Source of the DNA: a virus
Reading direction: 5' to 3' (one strand)
Length of the DNA stretch: 22,359 nt
Virus record (IMG/VR): IMGVR_UViG_3300015189_000033
Span: 1-22,359 of that record
Shown here piece by piece: positions 1 to 3,736 of this stretch. Position 1 is the first letter of the stretch; each line of letters starts with the position of its first letter. Under the pieces are notes generated by a model, which saw nothing but the letters and a program-made list of their open reading frames with translations, was not told the DNA's origin and did not search any database. Both the position numbers and the translations under genes were made by a program.

Positions 1-199
1 TGACCTCGCCGACGACGATGTTGTAGTTCTCCTCGATCTCCATGCAGCGACCGGCGATGCGGGCGAGATGGCGAACGTGGTGGTCGGGGTAGGGGATGCG
101 GCCGTCGATGGTCTCGTTGATGCGTTCGGCGGCGTCGATCAGATCGTTGTACGCGTCGAACGTCTCGACGCTGTACAGGTGCGGGCGCAGGCCAGTCAT
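1..199 (-). CDS. Partial hypothetical protein sharing a duplicated 62-residue N-terminal domain
   Basis: This gene runs off the left edge, so only its first 66 residues are visible. It starts at an ATG that overlaps the stop of the upstream gene (ATGA). Residues 1-62 match the N-terminus of the zinc-ribbon protein at 1367-1927, with one substitution (Tyr17 here, Phe17 there). The shared domain is probably helical, with Asp/Glu-rich segments and an H-H-V-R-H-L-A-R-I-A-G stretch; I recognise no family. After residue 62 the two proteins diverge completely, so the C-terminus of this one is unknown. It is the last visible member of the coupled accessory operon. The near-identity at DNA level implies a recent duplication or recombination event. 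Confidence 0.75.
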   Translation of the reverse strand, partial: MTGLRPHLYSVETFDAYNDLIDAAERINETIDGRIPYPDHHVRHLARIAGRCMEIEENYNIVVGEV

Positions 200-201
200 G
201 C
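14..201. repeat. 188-bp direct repeat, copy 1
   Basis: Bases 14-201 match bases 1742-1929 at a constant offset of 1728. The only difference is at position 150 (T here, A at 1878). The repeat begins just upstream of a start codon and ends after codon 62 of both genes, so it carries exactly one N-terminal coding module. Confidence 0.95.
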
Positions 202-441
202 CGCACCCGCTTCGTCGTCGTTCAGCGATTCGAGCAGCTCGTCGCACGCCGTGATCGCCGCACGCAACGATCCGCGCAACGCGGCAACCTGCTGGGCTTC
301 CTGATTGAGCGCCGCGTCGATCGAGCGCGTCAACACGCCGACCTGTCGATCGAATGCCTCGGCGGCCTCGTCGAGGGTCATGGCGGGCTGCTCGGGCGGA
401 TCCTGCGCGCCATGGGTATCGATTCCGATGCGATCCATCAT
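196..441 (-). CDS. Small helical acidic protein, unknown function
   Basis: This is an 81-residue protein starting at an ATG that overlaps the previous stop (ATGATGG); a second Met follows directly. The sequence is rich in Ala, Glu, Asp and Leu and is predicted by eye to be mostly helical or coiled-coil, with an Asn-Asp-Asp-Glu acidic tail. It has no Cys pairs, signal peptide or membrane segment. Its stop overlaps the start of the repeat-containing gene at the left edge. I recognise no family. Position and coupling suggest an accessory phage protein co-translated with its neighbours. Confidence 0.7.
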   Translation of the reverse strand: MMDRIGIDTHGAQDPPEQPAMTLDEAAEAFDRQVGVLTRSIDAALNQEAQQVAALRGSLRAAITACDELLESLNDDEAGAA

Positions 442-722
442 GCCGGCACCTCGATCTCGCGCAGGCGGTCACGCAGGGCGATGACGCGCTGCTCGCGGTT
501 GCCGTGACAGTTGCCGCAACGCGCGAGGTAGTCGCCCACCTCGATCACAGCCTCGGCCAGTTCCGGCGCCAACGCAATCAGCGCAGCGTCGGCACTATCG
601 AATGGGCCGGGAACTCGCGCCACGACACTCGCGCCCAGCGCCCCGTCGCGCTCGTAGATGACCGTCTCGCCATCCACGTACGTTCCCTCACACCACGGCG
701 CTTCGCTCCACGGCCAGCTCAT
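438..722 (-). CDS. Hypothetical 94-residue protein with a CxxC pair
   Basis: The start ATG overlaps the stop of the preceding gene by four bases (ATGA), and the stop overlaps the next start, so the gene is embedded in a translationally coupled chain. The N-terminus is rich in Trp, Glu and Gly; the middle is Ala/Leu-rich and probably helical. The only motif is C-G-N-C-H-G-N near residue 70, a single CxxC that might bind a metal but is too little to define a fold. It is not a cytochrome: there is no signal peptide and no CxxCH motif. Function unknown. Confidence 0.7.
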   Translation of the reverse strand: MSWPWSEAPWCEGTYVDGETVIYERDGALGASVVARVPGPFDSADAALIALAPELAEAVIEVGDYLARCGNCHGNREQRVIALRDRLREIEVPA

Positions 723-1210
723 GCGACCACCTCCGCGCTGGCAACCGCGCCCGCAGCTTCGGCAGCAGCAACCGCCTCCGCGTACGACGGCTCAAGATTG
801 TGCTCGTAGAGAATGCGACCGCTGCCAATGCCGCTCTCGTGCGCCATGTACTCAACCTTGCGCTCGATCAGGAACAGCTCGGTGTCGATGCAGTTGTCGA
901 ACATGCCGTCGTCATCCGGGTGCTTCTTGCGCGACACCGTGACCGCAACCTTGCCGACAGTGAGCGGCCCCGTGATGGTGTACGTCTCAACGTCGGCGTC
1001 GCCCACGATCTTCCCGTTGCGGCACTCGCTGATCGGGCAGAGCGCGCGCTGGTCTGTTCCTGCGGCGCTAACCCAGCCGCTACCGGTGCAGATGCTGCAT
1101 GCGTGGTAGACCTTCGCGCGGGACACCCACCAGTGGTAGACGGTGTCGCCGAGGTTGTAGCGGTGAGTCATTGAGGTGTCAGCTGAATCGGCCGGTGGTG
1201 CGGTTATCAT
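719..1210 (-). CDS. Hypothetical protein with an N-terminal Cys4-type zinc-binding motif
   Basis: This 163-residue protein is read from the ATG at 1210, which is preceded by a good ribosome-binding site (AAAGG, 7-base spacing). That start overlaps the upstream gene by 32 bases. A later ATG at 1171 would avoid the overlap but has no visible binding site. After an R-Y-N-L-G-D-x-V-Y stretch come C-S-I-C-T-G-S-G-W and C-P-I-S-E-C-R-N-G, the CxxC-x-G-x-G / CPxxxCxxG layout of a DnaJ-like or zinc-ribbon knuckle. The remainder is beta-rich and ends in an Ala-rich helix. It is probably a small metal-binding protein. It is the third Cys-rich product in this operon. Confidence 0.7.
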   Translation of the reverse strand: MITAPPADSADTSMTHRYNLGDTVYHWWVSRAKVYHACSICTGSGWVSAAGTDQRALCPISECRNGKIVGDADVETYTITGPLTVGKVAVTVSRKKHPDDDGMFDNCIDTELFLIERKVEYMAHESGIGSGRILYEHNLEPSYAEAVAAAEAAGAVASAEVVA

Positions 1211-1370
1211 GTCCTTGCCTTTCCGCAGAGAGGTTGGCGGCGTCCTTCGGGGCGCCGTCGTTGTTATTGGTGAGGTGTATCCAGAGGGCCAGTAGCGCGT
1301 AGGGGACGCCGACGAACACGGCGAACGATGCCCAGCCGGCGAACGTGATCGCGTCGAGGATGCTGCTCAC
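1179..1370 (-). CDS. Small single-pass membrane protein (copy 2 of a duplicated type)
   Basis: The GTG start at 1370 overlaps the stop of the zinc-ribbon gene (GTGA), giving 63 residues. Residues about 8-32 form one hydrophobic transmembrane segment, followed by an Asn/Asp-rich polar tail with A-P-K-D-A-A near residue 42. It resembles the product of 2887-3087: both begin M-S-x-x-L-D, have one membrane segment of similar length, then L-x-x-x-x-x-P-K-D, and both lie directly downstream of a zinc-ribbon gene. A longer upstream start is rejected because it would sit inside the preceding gene in a low-quality reading frame. Function is unknown; membrane location is inferred. Confidence 0.7.
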   Translation of the reverse strand: MSSILDAITFAGWASFAVFVGVPYALLALWIHLTNNNDGAPKDAANLSAERQGHDNRTTGRFS

Positions 1371-1927
1371 GACGCGGCCTCCGCCAGTTCGACCTGCACA
1401 AGCTCGCGGCAGTGCGGTACCTCGCGGCACCCGCCCCACGCGCACTCGCCGCACTGGTCCGGGTTATCGCCCATGTCGATGTCGGGGTCCGGGTCGTGGG
1501 TGGGCGCGTGCCCGCATAGCTCGCAGAATGAGTGGTCACAGATTTCGCAGCCGTGCAGCTGGTCGCCGTCGAGGGGGACGTAGGCGCAGCAGTAGCAGCC
1601 CTGCGACACCCCCGCAGCGGGAAGGTCAGAACACGCTGCGGGGGTTGCCGAGGGAGATGACGCTGGTGGATTGCCAGCGTCGTTGGGGTCGGGATGGGGT
1701 CCCGTGTCGCCGCCTGTCGGGAGGGACGTGGCGGCAATGTGGACGATGTTGTAGTTCTCCTCGATCTCCATGCAGCGACCGGCGATGCGGGCGAGATGGC
1801 GAACGTGGTGGTCGGGGTAGGGGATGCGGCCGTCGATGGTCTCGTTGATGCGTTCGGCGGCGTCGATCAGATCGTTGAACGCGTCGAACGTCTCGACGCT
1901 GTACAGGTGCGGGCGCAGGCCAGTCAT
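1367..1927 (-). CDS. Two-domain protein: duplicated N-terminal domain plus C-terminal zinc-ribbon
   Basis: The start ATG at 1927 overlaps the upstream stop (ATGA), giving 186 residues. Residues 1-62 are the module shared with the gene at the left edge. Residues about 65-108 are a Pro/Ser/Thr/Asp-rich linker encoded by a chain of inverted repeats. Residues 111-172 are Cys-rich: C127-x2-C130-x4-C135-x2-C138, then His144 and C159-x2-C162, with more Cys at 111, 113 and 114. The C-x2-C-x4-C-x2-C spacing is the same as in the protein at 3084-3515, and both are followed by a single-pass membrane protein. This looks like a treble-clef or zinc-ribbon fold for nucleic-acid or protein binding; no specific function is claimed. 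Confidence 0.75.
   Translation of the reverse strand: MTGLRPHLYSVETFDAFNDLIDAAERINETIDGRIPYPDHHVRHLARIAGRCMEIEENYNIVHIAATSLPTGGDTGPHPDPNDAGNPPASSPSATPAACSDLPAAGVSQGCYCCAYVPLDGDQLHGCEICDHSFCELCGHAPTHDPDPDIDMGDNPDQCGECAWGGCREVPHCRELVQVELAEAAS
1608..1735. repeat. Chain of four adjacent inverted repeats inside a linker
   Basis: Four hairpin-forming repeats follow one another. A perfect 12-bp stem pairs 1608-1619 with 1634-1645 (14-base loop). A perfect 8-bp stem pairs 1659-1666 with 1674-1681 (7-base loop). A 5-bp stem pairs 1690-1694 with 1700-1704 around loop TGGGG. A 6-bp stem pairs 1709-1714 with 1730-1735, with three more pairs inside its loop. They occupy the linker codons of the zinc-ribbon gene and end a few bases from the 188-bp repeat boundary at 1742. 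Confidence 0.85.
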
Positions 1928-1929
1928 GC
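1742..1929. repeat. 188-bp direct repeat, copy 2
   Basis: Partner of bases 14-201, with one mismatch (1878 A versus 150 T). It carries the first 62 codons and start-codon context of the two-domain zinc-ribbon gene. Its downstream boundary abuts the inverted-repeat chain. Confidence 0.95.
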
Positions 1930-2436
1930 GGTCACCTGCTCGGGTAGCGGCCGGCGACCGCCACCGCCCTTCGTGGGGCTGGGCCCGAACGCCTCGTACA
2001 CCGCGATATGCGCCGCGTCACGACCGAGCCCCATGTGCCGCGCGAACTCGCGGGCGCTCGGAACGTATCCCAGCTCGCGCCCGTAGTCGCGGGCGGCTTG
2101 CACGCGGTCATCGAACCGGCGTTGATCGGCAGCACGCCGGCAGTCGAAACACATCCGATCCGACGCGCGACGGGAACCCGACAGTGTCTTGCCGCACGAG
2201 CTGCACACGCCCGACACCTTCACCACGGCAGTCAGGTACGCGTGACGACGACGCAGGACGTTCGGCCGATCGCTGTGCGCGAGCTGATGGATGCGCGCCG
2301 GTACCTGCTCAGTGCACTCCGCGGCCTCCACCTGCGTGAGCCCTGCGTGTAGCAGGCCCAGCACGAACGCGCGGGTCTCGATGTTCGTGCGCAGGTCGTA
2401 GTGGTCGAGCATGTTGGTGGTCAGCGTGTCGCTCAT
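1924..2436 (-). CDS. Possible DNA-binding protein: zinc knuckle plus homing-endonuclease-associated-type repeat
   Basis: The ATG at 2436 overlaps the preceding stop (ATGA), giving 170 residues; longer versions run into low-complexity shadow sequence. The N-terminal third is helical and reads like a helix-turn-helix (G-L-T-Q-V-E-A-A-E-C). Next comes C-S-S-C-G-K, and about 18 residues later C-F-D-C, forming a four-Cys zinc knuckle. Near the C-terminus, L-G-Y-V-P-S-A-R-E-F-A-R-H-M-G followed by Y-E-A-F-G resembles the small helical repeats found beside homing endonucleases and in some regulators. No nuclease motif is visible. I infer DNA binding, perhaps regulatory; the exact family is uncertain. 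Confidence 0.7.
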   Translation of the reverse strand: MSDTLTTNMLDHYDLRTNIETRAFVLGLLHAGLTQVEAAECTEQVPARIHQLAHSDRPNVLRRRHAYLTAVVKVSGVCSSCGKTLSGSRRASDRMCFDCRRAADQRRFDDRVQAARDYGRELGYVPSAREFARHMGLGRDAAHIAVYEAFGPSPTKGGGGRRPLPEQVTA

Positions 2437-2696: not shown

Positions 2697-2890
2697 TGGT
2701 CGGCCCTCCGCGACTCGCGTTCCAGTACGCACACGTCATCCCACGACGGGAACCGCAACGCGGCCGGGATCGGCACACGCGTCGGCTTCCACGGCAGTGG
2801 ATCGGCATCACGGCGCGCGATGCGTGCGGCGTGATCCCGGTCGGTCAGGATGCGCGCGGTGCGATCCGGGGTGGTAGCTAGAATGGTCAT
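2693..2890 (-). CDS. Hypothetical 65-residue basic protein
   Basis: The ATG at 2890 overlaps the upstream stop (ATGA), and the stop overlaps the TTG start of the next gene. The product is highly charged, with many Arg and Asp residues; the N-terminal half is probably helical, followed by a Pro-containing segment (P-L-P-W-K-P-T-R-V-P-I-P) and F-P-S-W-D-D-V. No domain is recognised. It is supported mainly by perfect coupling on both sides and by the plausible amino-acid composition compared with the other frames. Confidence 0.6.
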   Translation of the reverse strand: MTILATTPDRTARILTDRDHAARIARRDADPLPWKPTRVPIPAALRFPSWDDVCVLERESRRADH

Positions 2891-3087
2891 TGCACGGTGT
2901 CCTTCTGGCGATGGGTGGCGTTGCGGTTCTCCGGGCTCGACGCACTCACAGCGTCGGGCTCGGAATCTTTCGGGAGGGCGTGGTTCAGCCAGCGGATACC
3001 GGCGATCAGCAGGCCGCCAGCGAACATGTAGGTCGCAGCGACCGAGAGCCACGGGTACAGGACCAGCACGTCCAGCAGGCGGCTCAT
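2887..3087 (-). CDS. Small single-pass membrane protein (copy 1 of a duplicated type)
   Basis: The ATG at 3087 overlaps the stop of the zinc-ribbon gene (ATGA), giving 66 residues. After M-S-R-L-L-D comes one hydrophobic segment (about residues 7-33) ending in I-R-W-L-N, then P-K-D and a polar Ser/Asn/Asp tail. The layout matches the 63-residue protein at 1179-1370, which is also immediately downstream of a zinc-ribbon gene. The tail is probably soluble and the protein probably inserts in the host membrane. A holin is unlikely, because the gene is outside the lysis cassette and only one segment is seen. Function unknown. Confidence 0.7.
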   Translation of the reverse strand: MSRLLDVLVLYPWLSVAATYMFAGGLLIAGIRWLNHALPKDSEPDAVSASSPENRNATHRQKDTVQ

Positions 3088-3515
3088 GCGGTCCTCCAGT
3101 ACGCGCCCACGCCATGCTCGCGGTCGGATGCGTCGCGGCAGTCCGCGCAGTCGGCCTCGTCCGCGTCGGGGTGCACGGTGCCCGAGCAGTCCGGGCACAC
3201 GAGCAGGCCGCACGTACCGCACAGTTCGAACTCCCACGCCTCGTCGAGTGCTTCGACGCTGCCACAGCCCTTGCATGGGCACTTGTGGGGCTCGGGGTCG
3301 TCGGGAGCGGGGGTCGCATCCAGGGGGACGGATGTGCGATCCCCCGCTTCCGAGGGGGCTTCACTCGATGGGGTCGAGCCGGGCGTGCCATCCGGGGGGA
3401 TGGCAAGAATGGGCGTAGCAGGGATGTCAGTCCCCGCTACGCAGGACACGGCGCCGCAATCACGGCCCGCGTCGTCACCAGACGTGAAAACGAAATCGCC
3501 GAAGGGGCGCGTCAC
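3084..3515 (-). CDS. Zinc-ribbon protein with low-complexity linker (paralogue of 1367-1927 C-terminus)
   Basis: The GTG at 3515 overlaps the stop of the helix-turn-helix gene (GTGA); the product has 143 residues. Residues about 28-75 are rich in Pro, Thr, Ser and Asp and are encoded by consecutive inverted repeats. The C-terminal half carries C79, C81 and C84, then C99-x2-C102-x4-C107-x2-C110, His115 and C123-x2-C126. The central C-x2-C-x4-C-x2-C block has identical spacing in the protein at 1367-1927. It is probably a two-zinc treble-clef-like domain. As the first gene after the regulator it may be among the first accessory proteins made. No enzymatic residues are apparent. Confidence 0.75.
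   Translation of the reverse strand: MTRPFGDFVFTSGDDAGRDCGAVSCVAGTDIPATPILAIPPDGTPGSTPSSEAPSEAGDRTSVPLDATPAPDDPEPHKCPCKGCGSVEALDEAWEFELCGTCGLLVCPDCSGTVHPDADEADCADCRDASDREHGVGAYWRTA
3307..3442. repeat. Chain of four adjacent inverted repeats inside a linker
   Basis: A bulged 15-bp stem pairs 3307-3321 with 3330-3347. A perfect 5-bp stem pairs 3364-3368 with 3374-3378 around loop TGGGG. A perfect 8-bp stem pairs 3386-3393 with 3398-3405 around loop GGGG. A stem of 7+4 bp with one mismatch pairs 3413-3424 with 3431-3442. Spacers between the last three are only 7 bases. All lie in the Pro/Thr/Ser-rich linker codons of the zinc-ribbon gene, mirroring the chain at 1608-1735. Confidence 0.85.
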
Positions 3516-3736
3516 GCGGCACCCTTGACGTTGCGCTTGAACGGGGCGTGCGCCTGCTGTGCCGTGAGGAAGTGCTTCGCCACGAACAGCGCCCGGTACT
3601 TCGGGTCAGGGTTCCGGCGTCCGTTGAGCCACTGACTGACGGTGGACTGGTCCGCGTCGAACAACACGGCCAACTCGCGGACCGTGTTGCCCTTCCGCTC
3701 CCTTGCCTCCTGCAGTTCCTGGTCGATCGTGCGCAT
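3512..3736 (-). CDS. Cro/CI-type helix-turn-helix DNA-binding protein
   Basis: This is a 74-residue protein starting at the ATG at 3736, which has GGAG five bases upstream; a Met further upstream at 3760 lacks a binding site. Residues about 18-45 form a typical XRE-type helix-turn-helix: T-V-R-E-L-A-V-L-F, then D-Q-S-T-V-S-Q-W-L-N-G as recognition helix, followed by R-R-N-P-D-P-K-Y. It is essentially only the DNA-binding domain, so it resembles a small Cro-like regulator more than a full repressor. It is the first gene behind a sigma-70-like promoter surrounded by TGCA-rich dyads, which suggests autoregulation and control of the accessory operon downstream. Confidence 0.85.
   Translation of the reverse strand: MRTIDQELQEARERKGNTVRELAVLFDADQSTVSQWLNGRRNPDPKYRALFVAKHFLTAQQAHAPFKRNVKGAA

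Follow-up and report, generated by a model that had tools for sequence, protein, structure and literature searches.

The locus and its repeat

How did two genes near one end of a phage fragment come to begin with almost the same 62 codons (hereafter the module), and what happens where the likeness stops? The sequence in which this question arises, referred to here as the window, is 22,359 bp long and is the entire IMG/VR record IMGVR_UViG_3300015189_000033, classed as linear and with 67% GC. Read from right to left, its minus strand carries the genes for the terminase large subunit, portal, protease, major capsid protein and tape measure, followed by an amidase, an HTH protein and then small genes without assigned function up to the left edge. 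Relatives of the capsid protein are 30-49% identical, many of them in Actinomycetota genomes and metagenomes; with this protein as bait only such distant relatives were recovered, and none of them carried the module or the left-end genes. Likewise, no close relatives of the fragment were found with the terminase, the portal and two of the left-end gene products (g170 and g94) as baits.

Bases 14-201 and 1742-1929 are identical at 187 of 188 positions, far above chance, with a longest common exact run of 136 bp. The sole mismatch (T at base 150, A at base 1878) exchanges Tyr17 for Phe17, and 61 of the 62 shared residues are identical. The pair is the top direct-repeat family in the window, where the remaining families are 24-47 nt long and mostly 60-80% identical, a level expected by chance. 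On the minus strand the shared stretch opens 2 nt 5' of the ATG (GC followed by ATGACTGG) and closes after codon 62 (...EENYNIV). The original prediction of a near-perfect 188-bp repeat that differs at Tyr17/Phe17 and extends from the start-codon context to codon 62 in both genes is thus confirmed. Copy 1 (14..201, minus strand) comprises the 2 nt upstream of the ATG and codons 1-62 (MTGLRPHLYSVETFDAY...EENYNIV) of a gene that continues past the contig end. Copy 2 (1742..1929, minus strand) is the 5' end of a zinc-ribbon ORF, zr2, with Phe17 in place of Tyr17. In both copies the ATG overlaps the stop codon of the upstream gene (ATGA), and the 62 codons have a coding-type bias (GC3 0.90-0.91).

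Past codon 62, copy 1 continues with codons 63-66 (VGEV) and one further base (1..13, minus strand), and there the contig ends, 13 bp beyond the repeat. Copy 2 continues with HIAATSLPTGG... into the Cys-rich ORF at 1367-1927. Provided that the last 13 bases are correct, the genes of the two copies part at codon 63 and, given VGEV versus HIAATSLP, the left gene does not repeat zr2 identically over its full length. Because the window is the whole record, the left gene is visible to codon 66 only. Of the two different continuations that had been proposed, the difference at codons 63-66 holds, and the copy 1 side is cut four codons past the repeat. The accompanying proposal of recent domain shuffling within one operon holds in so far as there is a duplication, recent by its single change in 188 nt, within a same-strand cluster with overlapping starts and stops; that two complete proteins share a domain goes beyond what the sequence establishes, the same domain on two proteins being a possibility.

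The genes around the two copies are small and closely packed. Upstream of copy 1 lies g81 (196..441, minus strand), the stop of which overlaps the copy 1 ATG; upstream of copy 2 lies g170 (1924..2436, minus strand), an ORF with two CxxC pairs, the stop of which overlaps the zr2 ATG. The 1,540-bp interval between the repeats (202..1741, minus strand) holds five genes: the 3' part of zr2, tm2, g150, g94 and g81. The zr2 ORF (186 aa; 1367..1927, minus strand) consists of the module, a linker that coincides with a hairpin array (codons 63-108) and a Cys-rich part (CYCC...CEICDHSFCELC...CGEC). A second ORF, zr1 (143 aa, GTG start; 3084..3515, minus strand), has a short N-terminus, a hairpin-array linker and a Cys-rich part, and does not have the module. 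By eye, the Cys-rich parts of zr1 and zr2 have a CxxCx4CxxC core in common; an alignment test of the two found no likeness beyond it. Each zinc-ribbon gene is directly followed by a gene for a small membrane-type protein, tm2 (1179..1370, minus strand) after zr2 and tm1 (2887..3087, minus strand) after zr1, possibly as a duplicated gene pair. The similarity between the tm1 and tm2 proteins is weak (z 4.5-5). The arrangement is suggestive of two related blocks (zr and tm) at the left end, with the module in the second only.

The upstream edge

The upstream edge of the repeat falls inside a motif, GGTG-N2-3-GCRTGA, that joins a GGTG resembling a ribosome site to an Ala codon and the stop/start overlap. 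At the copy 1 start it reads GGTGCGGCATGA (196..207, minus strand), and further sites lie at the gene starts at 438-450, 719-731, 1924-1936, 2433-2444 and 3512-3523 (all on the minus strand). The window contains eight matches against 0.63 expected, a count reached by none of 100 shuffles, and six of the eight are at left-end gene starts, those of both repeat copies among them. Given that 14 related records carry 0-4 matches each, above reversed controls, the motif is in part a general translation-coupling junction that is dense in this window. In phage mosaicism, short conserved sequences at boundaries have been suggested to serve as points of exchange (PMC3029335).

The placement of this edge bears on whether the repeat could have arisen during assembly, with the left end misjoined through the repeat or through a mixture of strains and one copy or flank absent from any single genome. 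Copy 1 does lie at the contig end, the contig starting 13 bp past the repeat, and the distance from base 1 to the only distinguishing base (150) is exactly 150 nt, as might be expected of an end limited by read length. The 136-bp exact run, moreover, is longer than common assembly k-mers. However, the right-hand flanks of the two copies differ and look gene-like, one difference separates the copies, and both edges coincide exactly with ATGA overlaps, in a motif that other gene starts carry as well; a misjoin by chance would hardly be expected to fall at a start codon twice. We therefore regard an assembly artefact as unlikely. A separate case is locus L060, where a near-perfect 33-bp hairpin at the contig start (1-71) is probably an end artefact of that contig.

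The downstream edge

Just past the other edge, 4 bp beyond copy 2, begins an array of four hairpins (1599..1737, minus strand; 1707-1737, 1690-1704, 1659-1681 and 1599-1654) separated by spacers of 2, 8 and 4 nt, with folding z-scores of -5.6 as RNA and -7.1 as DNA. A second array, of about five hairpins, lies in zr1 (3301..3470, minus strand; z -6.6 as RNA). Arrays were detected by fold z-scores, a plain count of 7-bp stems having been dropped as too noisy, and these two are the most structured places on the whole minus (coding) strand. Both are open in frame, yet without codon-position bias: GC1/2/3 is 0.70/0.74/0.65 in the zr2 linker and 0.68/0.72/0.72 in the zr1 linker, whereas GC3 is 0.86-0.90 in the module and both Cys-rich parts. 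Among 933 codon windows of annotated genes, the bottom ranks are taken by both zr linkers and one stretch of a tail gene. When codons were permuted with the peptide fixed, the arrays were still unusual (z -5.8 and -4.2); when codons were resampled by genome-wide usage the signal was weak (z about -1 to -2), owing to the lower GC3 of the linkers. A random stretch of linker composition would be open by chance with a probability of 0.49 (zr2) or 0.44 (zr1), and the open frame through the arrays is therefore weak evidence.

Structured linkers occur beyond this fragment. A RepA-like initiator in locus L022 has in-frame hairpins together with a loss of codon bias in its linker (z -4.8), and so does gp42 of Streptomyces phage Cumberbatch (z -4.7 and -4.5); the structure was weaker in Blett and MosMoris, and the linkers of SF3 and Raleigh showed none. 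The actinophage initiators (the L022 ORF and Cumberbatch gp42) thus resemble the zinc-ribbon ORFs in having a linker without codon bias and with in-frame hairpins (z -4.5 to -4.8). They differ in being replication initiators, not all of which have a structured linker, while the zinc-ribbon ORFs have no initiator domain. As an observation in its own right, the RepA-like initiators of actinobacterial phages at L022 3510-3760 and L103 895-1821 combine linker hairpins with a drop in GC3 and possibly contain embedded origins.

What the arrays do is a matter of several candidates: they may be terminators, origins, pause sites or recombination joints. Intrinsic terminators made of hairpin clusters likewise contain several short hairpins at distances below 15 nt and need no U-tract (PMC8355165), and the 2, 8 and 4 nt spacers of the zr2 array lie within that limit. 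Those clusters are, however, located after stop codons and between operons (PMC8355165), and the arrays described here are inside the zr2 and zr1 ORFs rather than between transcription units. An Rfam search gave no match. Rickettsia palindromic elements form a family of repeated sequences that are inserted in frame within several genes. This type was rejected, as a repeat search in the window found no sequence repeated between the zr2 and zr1 arrays, and the exact stem of the fourth zr2 hairpin did not recur in viral contigs, which disfavours the zr2 array as a mobile repeat. In phage lambda, an intragenic replication origin lies inside the initiator gene O; a counterpart was also rejected, zr1 and zr2 having no Pfam or PHROG match to an initiator. 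The most elaborate role, in which the in-frame arrays would act as built-in joints, structured as DNA or RNA, that also encode a flexible linker, mark where N-terminal modules are exchanged and control read-through to the zinc-ribbon domain, is in our opinion a long shot.

The module and the zr2 product

The original prediction saw copy 2 as fused to a zinc ribbon. The ORF is indeed open into the Cys-rich part; translation through the array was the part that had to be inferred, because codons 63-108 are a hairpin array without coding-type GC bias that is open by chance with a probability near 0.5. Judging from its sequence, the zr2 product is probably a fusion, with a two-helix module at the N-terminus followed by a Pro/Ala-rich linker that the array encodes and a Cys-rich domain that probably binds zinc.

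Alternatively, copy 2 may be an inert remnant: a truncated 5' duplicate, open by chance through non-coding hairpins, with the zinc-ribbon gene starting at an internal GTG (codon 107) and no fusion made or needed. The unbiased zr2 linker (GC1/2/3 as above, chance of an open frame about 0.49) and the presence of that GTG at the opening of the Cys-rich part agree with such a remnant. Yet the codon-107 GTG has no plausible ribosome site and itself lies inside the fourth hairpin. Moreover, zr1 has the same layout with no ATG, GTG or TTG between its array and its Cys-rich part, so that the zr1 array must be read through, and the only difference between the modules is the conservative Tyr/Phe exchange. 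We find it improbable that copy 2 is inert in this sense.

The module had also been proposed to be a docking or targeting unit, exchanged between effectors by domain shuffling. The same 62 residues do precede different sequence, and a single-sequence fold model gives two helices (a helical hairpin, a form common in interaction modules) at low confidence (mean pLDDT 63). However, the module had no match in Pfam or, by sequence or fold search, in the PDB, and its match to PHROG 15678 was weak (E 0.009). No relatives were found by an IMG/VR pattern scan, by tblastn against phages (best E 5), in a plasmid search or in 396 Actinomycetota genomes, and across 29 related records or genomes the single match (E 0.035) was at chance level. 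The expected occurrence with other C-termini was accordingly not found in viral contigs, phages, plasmids or those 396 genomes. As neither a third protein with the module nor a partner nor a functionally characterized homologue was found, and the second protein is unseen past residue 66, a docking or targeting role found no support and shuffling of this kind appears very doubtful. As a side observation, the module (window 1-199) aligns start to start with gp57 of Pseudomonas phage 201phi2-1 (phiKZ gp38-like; L099 565-1077) at 29% identity; the likeness to phiKZ gp38-like proteins was not significant in the database search (tblastn E 5), and we treat this sequence resemblance as a weak lead.

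Origin of the repeat

We consider it reasonably probable that the repeat records a recent recombination, either in this phage or in a near ancestor, that left the zinc-ribbon gene with a second copy of the 5' end in front of it or, in an equivalent description, brought in a block of genes at the 5' end. This reading rests on the near-identity of the copies, on an edge that coincides with a stop/start overlap, on the junction motif they share, on the five genes lying between them and on the hairpin array beside the opposite edge. It also draws on the retention of the ATGA overlap and of the module codon bias in both copies, together with the difference at codons 63-66. Against it, the left gene ends at codon 66 and the contig stops 13 bp past the repeat.

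The exchange would have begun in the conserved junction (ribosome site and ATGA overlap), between 5' gene copies, or both, and host or phage recombinases would have carried it out; phage recombinases acting on diverged sequence are known (PMC2327257). Recombination at the gene start would have put the 5' segment of an early gene in front of the zinc-ribbon gene; in the alternative form, a block of genes would have been inserted between two copies of the segment. The fusion protein would then be a likely by-product, and it may not be made as a protein, given that the copy 2 linker has no coding bias. The two copies could still recombine and delete the five-gene, 1,540-bp interval: when the flanks were joined across the repeat in silico, the copy-1 gene was left in frame behind g170. 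A search for an empty site, that is, a relative without the interval, found no relatives of the module or of the flanking g170. Since no relative was found, whether carrying the interval or lacking it, the direction and age of the event rest on one sequence.

A published precedent is mycobacteriophage Island3, in which gp67 and gp68 have about 50 bp in common at their 3' ends, a likeness ascribed to recombination between the repeats (PMC3029335). In both cases neighbouring small phage genes have a near-identical end; in Island3, by comparison with Brujita, recombination between repeats gains or loses the sequence between them (PMC3029335), and here direct DNA repeats at neighbouring gene ends flank 1,540 bp with five genes, which could be gained or lost. 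The Island3 genes are adjacent, whereas the present repeat is 188 bp long, at 5' ends 1.5 kb apart, and has no comparison genome. Recently emerged domain mosaicism has been described for phage proteins that share at least 50 aa at > 90% identity and are otherwise unlike (PMC10684548). Against the thresholds of that survey (at least 50 aa at at least 90% identity, the shared part at most half of both proteins), the present pair shares 62 aa, 61 of them identical, which is 33% of zr2 (62/186), the copy 1 protein being visible to residue 66 only. That survey compared protein families of many genomes, and ours is one contig with one partner truncated. Finally, in the chimeric nuclease Odn (gp88) of ICP1, an N-terminal domain that also occurs in another protein is linked to a C-terminal domain of a different kind (PMC8263062). 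For Odn, function and origin targeting have been shown (PMC8263062), while the present case is known from sequence alone and without a homologue.

The event itself is most likely ordinary phage mosaicism, recent and clearly marked. It adds a new gene-level example in which the copies are still nearly identical, one edge lies in a conserved junction motif and the other adjoins a structured element. More unusual than the repeat are the in-frame hairpin arrays, and it is these that merit attention. That such linker arrays are general is hinted at by two other actinobacterial phage sequences, which point the same way. If in-frame hairpin arrays were general in phage linkers, they would form a testable class of cis-elements that gene annotation has overlooked.
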